Shown here: in pieces, positions 30,362 through 33,439 of the stretch
Numbering within the stretch: position 1 is the stretch's first letter
How the letters are laid out: every line of letters begins with the position of its first letter
NCBI GenBank assembly: GCA_036265815.1
Contig: DATAOI010000009.1
Span: 1-36,879 of the forward strand
Direction of reading: 5' to 3'
Source: Gemmatimonadales bacterium
GTDB lineage: Bacteria; Gemmatimonadota; Gemmatimonadetes; Gemmatimonadales; GWC2-71-9
DNA length: 36,879 nucleotides
Notes under the pieces: generated by a model
Databases searched by the model: none
What the model was told of the DNA's origin: nothing
Seen by the model: only the letters and a program-made list of their open reading frames with translations
Made by a program: the position numbers and the translations under genes

Positions 30362-30430
30362 TCTTCCCGTGAGCCGAGTCACCGCTTAGACTGTTTCCCG
30401 CCGGCATAATCCATCCACGTAAGTTGTTAT

Positions 30431-30502
30431 TTGTCAACAAGTTATGTTGACAACTCTGTGGATATCCCGTGCACGGTGTGGACAACCGTTCGGTTCTCCA
30501 CA
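30431..30502. promoter_or_regulatory. Cluster of five DnaA-box-like 9-mers in an AT-rich island upstream of ku
   Basis: Against the consensus TTRTCCACA the matches are TTGTCAACA (30431, 8/9), TGTTGACAA (30445, minus, 8/9), TGTGGATAT (30457, minus, 8/9), TGTGGACAA (30477, minus, 9/9) and TTCTCCACA (30494, 8/9). All lie within 72 bp. The first two form an inverted repeat of 9-bp arms around AGTTA. The preceding 40 bases (from about 30417) are strikingly AT-rich for this GC-rich DNA. Known meaning: such clusters occur at oriC and at DnaA-regulated or DnaA-titrating sites. The first pair alone could instead be an operator for a dimeric repressor. Confidence 0.6.
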
Positions 30503-30531
30503 CGGGTGCCTCCATTTGCGGGGGGAGCGCT

Positions 30532-31368
30532 ATGGCGAGGGCGATCTGGAGCGGGTCGATCAGCTTCGGGATGGTCAGCATCCCGGTCAAGCTTCACGGG
30601 GCCACGGAGAGTAAGGACATCTCCTTTCACCTGCTCCACTCCACCTGTGGCACCCGGCTCAAACAAGTGCGCTGGTGTCCTACTGACGAGGTGGAGGTGC
30701 CCTGGGGCGAGACGGTGCGGGGCTACGAGTACGCCAAGGACCAGTACGTCACCCTCACGGACGAAGACTTCGAGAAGCTGCCGCTCCCGAGCAAACACGT
30801 GATCGAGCTGAGCGGGTTCGTGGAGGAGCAGGAGATCGATCCCGTCTTCTACGAGAAGAGCTATTACCTCTCTCCCGACGAGCGCGCGGAGAAGCCGTAC
30901 GCCCTCCTGCTCCGCGCGCTGGAGAAGAAGAAGCTCACGGCACTCGCCACCATCACCATCCGGAAGAAAGAGCAGCTCTGCGCGCTGCGGCCGCGCGACG
31001 AGGTGCTGATGCTGGAGACGCTCTTCTATCCCGACGAGGTGCGCAAGGAATCGGGCGTGGACCTGTCGGCGGCACGGGTGAGCGACCGTGAGCTGGACAT
31101 GGCGTTCACTCTCATCGAGCTGCTGCGGAAGCCGTTCGATCCGGGGGAGTATCAGGACCACTACCGGGAGGCGCTGGCGCAGCTGATCGAGGCCAAGCTC
31201 GAGGGCCGCCAGGTGGTGAAGGCCCCGCCGGCGCGCGAGACCCGGGTCATCGACCTGGCGGACGCGCTCCGGAAGAGCGTCGAGGCGGCGCGGAAAGGCA
31301 AGCCCAAGCCGGCCGCACGTGCCCGCAAGCCGGTGCGGGCGCAGCGGCGCACGAGGAAGGTGGGGTGA
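30532..31368 (+). CDS. ku: Ku DNA end-binding protein (NHEJ)
   Basis: ATG 30532 follows GGGGGAG at 5 bp and opens MARAIWSGSISFGMVSIPVK, the invariable bacterial Ku start. The 278-residue protein has the Ku core beta-barrel/ring (1-235, with FHLLHSTCGTRLKQVRWCPT, VIELSGFVEEQEIDPVFYEK and MLETLFYPDEVR). A lysine/arginine-rich C-terminal tail follows (about 255-278), which in bacterial Ku proteins binds DNA and helps threading. It forms a homodimeric ring on double-strand breaks and recruits LigD. Its stop overlaps the GTG start of the LigD polymerase gene, so the three NHEJ genes form one operon. An upstream ATG at 30469 is inside the DnaA-box-like cluster and is not favoured. Confidence 0.95.
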   Translation: MARAIWSGSISFGMVSIPVKLHGATESKDISFHLLHSTCGTRLKQVRWCPTDEVEVPWGETVRGYEYAKDQYVTLTDEDFEKLPLPSKHVIELSGFVEEQEIDPVFYEKSYYLSPDERAEKPYALLLRALEKKKLTALATITIRKKEQLCALRPRDEVLMLETLFYPDEVRKESGVDLSAARVSDRELDMAFTLIELLRKPFDPGEYQDHYREALAQLIEAKLEGRQVVKAPPARETRVIDLADALRKSVEAARKGKPKPAARARKPVRAQRRTRKVG

Positions 31369-32438
31369 GCCGTCGGACGGCCGTGCCGGTGCTCGAGCAG
31401 CTCGCGGCTCCGGCCGCGAGTCTCACCCTCTCGGTCGACGGCTACGAGCTTCCCGTCACCAACCTGGAGAAGGCGCTCTGGCCCAAGGTGGGGCGCGGGC
31501 GGCCGCACACCAAGCGCGATCTGCTGCGCTACTTCGCGCGGGTCTCGCCGTGGATGCTGCCGCATCTGGCGGACCGGCCGATCTTCCTCACCCGTTTTCC
31601 CGGCGGCGTCAACGGCAAGAGCTTCTTCCAGAAGCACTGGGAGCCCGCGCCGCCGTTCGCCCGCACCGTGCGGATCTACTCCGCCCACGGCGACCGCGAC
31701 GGCGACTACCTCCTCTGCGAGAACCTGGTGACGCTCCTCTGGCTGGGGCAGATGGCGGGGCTCGAGCTGCACGGCTGGTTCTCCCGCACCAATCCGGAGC
31801 CGGACGCCCGCGGAAAGAGCCGTCGCTTCACCGGCTCGGAGGCGGCGCTGGAGCGCTCGATCCTCAACTACCCCGACTTCGTGGTCTTCGATCTCGACCC
31901 GTATCTCTACTCCGGCAAGGAGGGACGCGGCGAGGAGCCCGAGCTCCATAGGCGGGCGTTCGTCCGCACGCGGCAGCTCGCGCTGCACATCCGCGAGGTA
32001 CTCGAGGGCCTTGGTCTCACCACCTTCGTCAAGACGTCGGGCCGGACCGGGCTGCACCTCTATCTGCCGATCGTGCGCAACCTCGACTTCGACGCGGCCC
32101 GGCGGGTGGCCGAGACCATCGCGCAGCACGTGCAGCGGGATCGGCCGCGTGAGGTCACCACCGAATGGACGGTGAAGCTCCGCACCGGGAAGATCTTCTT
32201 CGACTACAACCAGAACAGCCGGGGGAAGTCGCTGGCGGTGCCATTCTCGCCTCGACGGCACGCGGCGGCGACGGTCTCGATGCCGGTGAGCTGGGACGAG
32301 CTTGAGGAGATCTATCCGACCGACTTCACGCTCGACACCGCGTCCGACCGGCTCGAAGCGGGTGGCGACCCCTGGACCGGCATGCTCGAGGCGCGACAGG
32401 ATCTGGCCGAGGTGCTCGGGTTGAGGAGGGCGGGATGA
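31365..32438 (+). CDS. ligD: LigD-type NHEJ primase-polymerase (stand-alone PolDom)
   Basis: The start is GTG 31365, overlapping the ku stop as GTGA; the protein has 357 residues. It matches the archaeo-eukaryotic primase-like polymerase domain of LigD. LTNLEKALWP-like VTNLEKALWPKVG, DRPIFLTRFPGGVNGKSFFQ and VVFDLDP (catalytic D176 and D178) are present, together with KTSGRTGLHLYLPI (metal and nucleotide binding) and TVKLRTGKIFFDYNQNSRGK. It fills gaps and adds ribonucleotides at break ends. In many bacteria this domain is fused to ligase and phosphoesterase domains; here it is separate. The C-terminus overlaps the ligase gene by 4 bp. No phosphoesterase (PE) domain is found in this operon. 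Confidence 0.92.
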   Translation: MSRRTAVPVLEQLAAPAASLTLSVDGYELPVTNLEKALWPKVGRGRPHTKRDLLRYFARVSPWMLPHLADRPIFLTRFPGGVNGKSFFQKHWEPAPPFARTVRIYSAHGDRDGDYLLCENLVTLLWLGQMAGLELHGWFSRTNPEPDARGKSRRFTGSEAALERSILNYPDFVVFDLDPYLYSGKEGRGEEPELHRRAFVRTRQLALHIREVLEGLGLTTFVKTSGRTGLHLYLPIVRNLDFDAARRVAETIAQHVQRDRPREVTTEWTVKLRTGKIFFDYNQNSRGKSLAVPFSPRRHAAATVSMPVSWDELEEIYPTDFTLDTASDRLEAGGDPWTGMLEARQDLAEVLGLRRAG

Positions 32439-33439
32439 GCGGGCGGCTGGAGTCGCTGGCGAGAGACGGCCGACACCGGCTGCGCTACCGCGCGCAGGCC
32501 GCCTGGATGGCCCCTATGCTGGCAACCCTCACCGAGGCGCTGCCGCGGGGTGGCGAGTGGGTCTACGAGCCCAAGCTCGACGGTGTCCGGGTGCTGGTCT
32601 ACGCCCAGGGTGGGGCGATCAAGCTCTTCTCCCGCAACCGGAAACCGCTGGAGTCCGCGTACCCCGAGCTGGTCGACGCGCTTACCCACTCTGTCAGGGG
32701 TGACGCGGTGCTCGATGGCGAGGTGGTCGCGGTGGATCCGGCCACCGGCCTGAGCAGCTTCGCCCGGCTGCAGCGCCGGATGCAGCTCCGGGATGCCACC
32801 CGCGCGCGGCGCACCGGCGTGGGGGTCGAGCTTTATCTCTTCGACTGTCTCTTCTACGAGGGGGTCGATCTCACCGCCCTGCCGCTGATCGACCGGAAGG
32901 CGGTGCTGCGCGACGTCGTCTGGTTCGACGCGCCGATCCGCTTCACTCCGTACAAGACCACCGGCTCGGCGGCGATGTTTCGGGAGGCGTGCGCCAAGGG
33001 CGCGGAAGGCATCATCGCCAAGCGGGCGGAGAGCCGCTACGTGAGCGCCCGATCGCTCGACTGGCTCAAGGTCAAGTGCGTGCACCAGCAGGAGTTCGTG
33101 ATCGGCGGGTACACGGCGCCCAAAGGCTCGCGCGAGAACCTCGGCGCGCTCCTGGTGGGGTATTACGAAAACGGCTCGCTCAAGTACGCCGGCAAGGTGG
33201 GCACCGGATACGACCGGTCGACTCTCGAGCTGCTTCACCGGCGGCTCACGCCGCTGCACCGGCGGACGTCACCATTCGCGCCAGGGCCCGCGCCCGCGGG
33301 CGAGGTGCGGTGGGTGACGCCGCGGCTGGTGGCACAGATCGGCTTCGCGGAGTGGACGCCGGCGGGGCTGCTCCGGCATCCGCGCTTCCTCGGGCTCCGG
33401 GAGGACAAGGCGGCGGCCGAGGTGGGACGGGAGGAGTAG
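32435..33439 (+). CDS. ligD: LigD-type ATP-dependent DNA ligase (stand-alone ligase domain)
   Basis: The 334-residue protein has the covalent nucleotidyltransferase motif I EPKLDGVR with adenylated Lys47. Motif III-type segments are LDGEVVAVDPATGLSSFARL and VELYLFDCLFYEG, motif IV is EGIIAKRAESRYVSARS, and motif V is WLKVKCVHQQEFVIGGYTAP. An OB-fold domain follows (about 215-315). It closes DNA nicks after Ku-dependent end joining. Size and sequence fit the ligase domain of LigD rather than replicative or repair ligases of other types. It overlaps the polymerase gene as ATGA and is the last gene of the NHEJ operon. The 98 bp to the next gene show no clear terminator. Confidence 0.93.
   Translation: MSGRLESLARDGRHRLRYRAQAAWMAPMLATLTEALPRGGEWVYEPKLDGVRVLVYAQGGAIKLFSRNRKPLESAYPELVDALTHSVRGDAVLDGEVVAVDPATGLSSFARLQRRMQLRDATRARRTGVGVELYLFDCLFYEGVDLTALPLIDRKAVLRDVVWFDAPIRFTPYKTTGSAAMFREACAKGAEGIIAKRAESRYVSARSLDWLKVKCVHQQEFVIGGYTAPKGSRENLGALLVGYYENGSLKYAGKVGTGYDRSTLELLHRRLTPLHRRTSPFAPGPAPAGEVRWVTPRLVAQIGFAEWTPAGLLRHPRFLGLREDKAAAEVGREE

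Follow-up and report, generated by a model that had tools for sequence, protein, structure and literature searches.

A compact group of 9-mers resembling DnaA boxes lies just upstream of a ku operon in a Gemmatimonadales genome, and the question is whether these sites form a chromosomal origin, a site of DnaA titration or a control element of the operon, all of which were put forward in a preliminary description of this DNA. In our view the cluster is real, conserved and regulatory, and control by DnaA is plausible. Positions are those of the window, by which we mean the whole 36,879-nt stretch that was analysed; the genome of the window (G000) is an assembly of 119 contigs. The operon comprises ku (30532..31368, + strand), which encodes a Ku subtype with an SKDISF motif (Pfam PF02735, E=2e-52), a LigD primase-polymerase gene (31365..32438, +; PF21686, E=2.5e-77) and an ATP-dependent DNA ligase gene (32435..33439, +; PF01068 and PF04679). 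This Ku has its nearest public homologues in Gemmatimonadales MAGs (best-segment identity 63-83%) and the next nearest in Chloroflexota.

The box cluster

Scanning the whole window for TTRTCCACA with at most one mismatch gave eight matches, five of which fall within 72 bp (30431-30502). In order, these are TTGTCAACA (+), TTGTCAACA (-), ATATCCACA (-), TTGTCCACA (-) and TTCTCCACA (+); the site at 30477-30485 is the sole 9/9 match and the other four are 8/9. The GC content of the 49 bp from 30417 to 30465 is 32.7%, compared with 68.6% window-wide, and the 50-mer beginning at 30417 has the second lowest GC content among all 50-mers of the window. In simulations of 3 million bases, whether the background was fitted to the window as a whole or to its AT-rich leader, no 72-bp segment contained three or more matches. 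The preliminary description had claimed five such 9-mers (8/9 or 9/9) in 72 bp, an adjoining AT-rich stretch and a density improbable by chance, and the scan, the base composition and the simulation confirm these claims.

Genome-wide, the same motif at the same tolerance occurs 391 times in 4.59 Mb, or about once per 12 kb. There are five further perfect DnaA boxes in the genome; the four inspected are isolated single sites, two of them within coding sequence, and a scan of the contig that holds the fifth (C52:136177) found no cluster of three.

The five matches of the cluster are not equivalent. The first and second are the arms of a single inverted repeat and hence are not independent, and the fifth (30494-30502) lies within a hairpin that is peculiar to G000 and has no conserved copy in relatives. 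An RNA hairpin was considered as an explanation of the cluster and rejected, as the strong hairpin at 30476-30503 is present only in G000 and the dyad formed by TTGTCAACA and TGTTGACAA is lost in other genera, where the boxes are retained. The fold of the leader RNA is stronger than that of shuffled controls (z -2.7).

Architecture of the promoter and leader

The most upstream element on the + strand is a CRP-like dyad, CGTGA-GCCGAG-TCACC (30368..30383), which is conserved at 8-10 of 10 positions across 15 leaders. The relatives have the form TGTGA-N6-CCACA, and the consensus across the aligned leaders is TGTGA-N6-YCACA. The centre of the dyad is 29 nt before an aligned NATNAT hexamer, which corresponds to -41.5 if the start lies 7 nt past the hexamer. 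In the window this hexamer is the putative -10 element CATAAT (30405..30410, +), part of a (C/G)ATNAT block conserved in the genus alignment; the result of an automatic hexamer scan differs from the aligned hexamer, being 2 nt upstream in four leaders and 3 nt downstream in three. From the 7-nt distance to the -10 element and the -41.5 spacing, we infer an approximate transcription start at 30417 (+).

Next to this position is a 25-bp palindromic operator, TAAGTTGTTATTTGTCAACAAGTTA (30420..30444), with the family consensus TAAGTYRTT-N7-AAYRASTTA. The first DnaA-box-like 9-mer, TTGTCAACA (30431..30439, +), lies within the palindrome and is retained, as TTRTCAACA, in the genus only. A phased array follows, consisting of TTGTCAACA at 30445..30453 (-; TGTTGACAA on the + strand), ATATCCACA at 30457..30465 (-; TGTGGATAT on the + strand), which is 12 bp past the preceding box, and the perfect match TTGTCCACA at 30477..30485 (-; TGTGGACAA on the + strand), a further 20 bp on. 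The last 9-mer, TTCTCCACA (30494..30502, +), is oriented the other way, forms part of an inverted repeat of 13 nt and is unconserved.

The array boxes share the same-strand form TGTKGANAA, with offsets from the TAAG of 25, 36-37, (48) and 57-60, and the spacing from TAAG to TTATGTKGA is fixed at 22 nt in 15 of 15 leaders. Successive boxes are 12 and 20-21 bp apart in the genus and 11-12 bp apart in two other genera, spacings that place the array boxes on one face of the helix. Taken together, 50 boxes give TGT(G/T)GA-N-A-(A), i.e. TTNTC(C/A)ACA, in which the GA core is invariant and the seventh position is free. Judged by promoter geometry and conservation, both of which are seen in the sequence, the succession of CRP-like dyad, -10 element, palindrome at the putative start and phased boxes in the leader is a conserved cis-regulatory module.

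Conservation and distribution

Ku scores in the family are bimodal, with at least 453 bits for the subtype of the window (17 genomes) and at most 237 bits for all other Ku proteins. Sixteen of these 17 genomes have readable upstream DNA and the full module is present in 15 of the 16; in the remaining one, G014, the boxes are kept at ku and the palindrome is missing. The carriers, a group of soil Gemmatimonadales bacteria, comprise the full set of ten genomes in the genus together with five from four other genera. Conservation upstream of ku in relatives, which the preliminary description had named as a check, extends for the boxes to every congener and to four further genera.

Across the family the module is found at ku in 15 of 102 genomes, always before the one Ku subtype. 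A search for the core pattern in 288 genomes of the order gave 15 positives, 14 of them at ku, the other being a weak match with two mismatches in a genome outside the family. A 48-nt core profile applied to the 102 genomes returned 17 full matches (the 15 ku leaders and two unlinked ligase-like genes), below which the scores drop from 27.6 to 20 bits with nothing else above 20 bits; the profile was trained on those 17 sites, so that their high scores arise by construction and it is the absence of others that is informative. Partial matches of 12-20 bits elsewhere are about as numerous as expected at E<=1, and they were used only if they recurred at the same gene (parA). The second, different ku of G000 has neither boxes nor module in its upstream region, and the module is absent from the Chloroflexota loci examined, which carry close homologues of the window's Ku. 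On this distribution, the module is the property of one Ku lineage within the Gemmatimonadales.

The palindrome and boxes at other genes

In six genomes from four genera (L213, L218, L220, L292, L294, L300), the 25-bp palindrome also occurs alone, no more than about 16 nt from the start codon of parA. The G000 copy (C52:139133-139157; L220:2134) is 13 nt upstream of parA. Genus-wide, matches to the palindrome pattern outnumber those to a reversed-pattern control by about 50 to 1. These sites suggest that one regulator serves both chromosome segregation and NHEJ genes. Some sigma-factor genes and M23-peptidase genes also have the palindrome upstream, each case being confined to one genome or a pair; in G086 it lies ahead of a primary-like sigma-factor gene and is followed by two GTGGACAAA repeats (L274, L214).

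Two complete extra copies of the module, found by way of a sequence pattern and a pattern for box pairs, precede an unlinked ligase-like gene of G032 and its G014 counterpart. In the encoded paralogues (L257:1036-1944, + strand; L258:1062-1952, - strand), motif I of ATP-dependent ligases is without its lysine, reading EPRLDGVR and EPLLRGRR, and the proteins may be catalytically dead.

Candidates for the protein that binds the boxes

The foremost candidate is DnaA, and we consider it somewhat probable that it binds these boxes. The DnaA of the lineage matches PF08299 and has a canonical helix-turn-helix with GGRDHSTVIH. Six of the seven readable genomes of the genus conserve a site of the same 9-mer form, TTTTCCACA, between the -35 and -10 elements of dnaA, a placement like that in dnaA autoregulation. 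DnaA is documented as both an activator and a repressor, of DNA repair genes among others (PMC8203912). Where the preliminary description offered DnaA control of ku/ligD, the regulatory part holds, with boxes conserved upstream of ku, and DnaA as the binder is what we infer.

The strongest competing interpretation, to which we give a real chance, if not quite an even one, keeps the same promoter module and has the TGTKGANAA boxes bound by another protein, for instance a response regulator of the OmpR/PhoB type or a dedicated repressor with the palindrome as a second target, so that the boxes would resemble DnaA boxes only by chance. Direct repeats with an 11-12 bp period fit OmpR/PhoB-type regulators, and the invariant GA core and free seventh position also favour another protein. 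In the genus, the first array box, TGTTGACAA, departs from the DnaA core in having T in place of the G of the CCACA core (TGTTGA), as do 12 of the 50 boxes, and boxes and palindrome occur together at the two ligase-like genes and one sigma-factor gene (L274). On the other hand, the 9-mer is identical to the high-GC DnaA box TTNTCCACA, the conservation of TTTTCCACA in the dnaA promoter is seen in the same genus, and an oriC box of G013 has the same G-to-T change (TGTTGGCAA). It counts against the DnaA reading that the oriC boxes of the lineage match TTRTCCACA poorly, so that the box preference of the lineage is not fixed independently. Further points against it are that part of the conservation could reflect the regulator of the palindrome alone and that G014 retains boxes but no palindrome at ku.

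Several other DnaA-type features were noted in the lineage. G000 encodes a 658-residue protein in which two DnaA-type AAA+ domains stand in tandem and the DnaA DNA-binding domain is lacking (G000:C90; L323:1058-3034); two DnaA-type domains are found on one contig in eight of the ten genomes of the genus and on two contigs in a ninth (G013). In two other genera, tandem GTGGATAA-type boxes come immediately after sites that we take to resemble dif, the Xer recombination site (L267, L268, L269, L273). Adjacent TTTTCCACA and TTGTCCACA boxes lie upstream of recA in one genus (L265, L266). In one genome, the leader of nrdJ, which encodes an adenosylcobalamin-type ribonucleotide reductase, has a DnaA-box-like cluster (G000:C22:93332-93368; L041:9333-9369), comparable to the situation at nrdAB of E. 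coli, which DnaA controls.

Titration and origin of replication

That the cluster is a DnaA-titration site (datA/DARS-like), beside ku by happenstance, is improbable. In favour of this reading, it is closer to the DnaA consensus than the boxes at oriC, but it is found without exception in the leader of a single Ku subtype, at fixed distances from the promoter elements, which points to local control, and the module is repeated at the two unlinked ligase-like genes. A titration locus has no need to track a gene.

The dnaA and dnaN genes sit on a contig other than that of the window. In G000 and seven congeners the gap between them contains, in conserved form, TGTGGGAAC, CCACATTTCCAGA, a GC spacer, CTACTACTGCTGCTA and an AT-rich tract, where CTACTACTGCTGCTA represents DnaA-trios (3'-GAT-5' on the other strand); this order of box, spacer and trio has been described for most bacterial origins (PMC8287927). 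GC skew is weak both across the 36.9-kb window and along the 303-kb contig carrying dnaA, too weak for a minimum to be located. It is very improbable that the ku cluster, despite its dense boxes and adjoining AT-rich tract, is the oriC of G000, since a textbook origin is conserved between dnaA and dnaN in eight genomes and most genomes of the family lack the ku element, and a search for the trio repeat beside the ku boxes found none. The origin option of the preliminary description is not borne out. That description had set a clear oriC elsewhere, combined with a lack of conservation at ku, against its own reading; the former is what we find, but the latter is not.

Proposed mechanism

We lean towards a model, built from the sequence comparisons, in which CRP-type activation and repression by DnaA and the palindrome-binding regulator would together govern the operon of ku, LigD polymerase and ligase. 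An activator of the CRP/FNR family at the -41.5 site would switch the ku promoter on. DnaA, probably as DnaA-ATP, would bind the phased boxes cooperatively and, with the palindrome-binding protein, would repress by blocking the start or the passage of RNA polymerase. The position of the boxes downstream of the putative start makes repression or a roadblock a better fit than activation. On this model, end joining would be kept low while cells replicate and a sister chromosome allows recombination, and would rise as DnaA falls and starvation signals rise.

A broader proposal is more tentative, and we regard it as possible rather than probable: that NHEJ in the Gemmatimonadales is gated by the cell cycle, with the DnaA array repressing, a regulator shared with parA (and perhaps with sigma-factor genes) acting where transcription starts and starvation bringing in a CRP-type activator that overrides both, such that end joining occurs only without a sister chromosome. 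NHEJ genes are expressed in non-replicating stages of Bacillus and Streptomyces, and NHEJ is used when the sister chromosome is absent (PMC5124664). How error-prone end joining is controlled by the availability of a sister chromosome is poorly explained outside the spore-formers, and a promoter responding directly to the replication initiator would, if true, be a simple answer. The module also reveals a palindromic operator common to NHEJ genes and parA in several genera of a little-studied phylum.

Comparison with known systems

Class II CRP/FNR promoters have a TGTGA-N6-YCACA dyad centred at -41.5 and no good -35 element. The ku promoter resembles them in its dyad, in the placement of that dyad at -41.5 as judged from the aligned hexamer, and in having no good -35 element.

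As in the DnaA-regulated promoters (dnaA autoregulation, nrdAB, uvrB/recN and polA; PMC8203912), 9-mers of the DnaA-box type are found here at a promoter of DNA metabolism or repair genes. Repression or activation by DnaA is known in those cases, whereas at the ku module DnaA is the presumed binder. The ku module differs further in that its target is an NHEJ operon and in having three to four same-strand phased boxes that lie wholly in the leader, downstream of a CRP-like site and of a palindromic operator with which they are combined. A literature search on DnaA with NHEJ, ku or ligD found no report linking DnaA to ku/ligD. The ku element shares with bacterial oriC and its basal unwinding system (PMC8287927) the occurrence of DnaA-box-like sites beside AT-rich DNA, but unlike oriC it has no DnaA-trio repeat, is away from dnaA/dnaN and is absent from most relatives.

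Known control of NHEJ includes the action of sigma-G on ykoU/ykoV in B. subtilis and the growth-phase rise of kuA in Streptomyces (PMC5124664). These systems and the one proposed here agree in that NHEJ would be on when replication stops. They differ in the means, which are a developmental sigma factor or unidentified factors in B. subtilis and Streptomyces, whereas the sequence of the ku module points to an activator of the CRP type, a regulator that binds the palindrome, and DnaA-like boxes.
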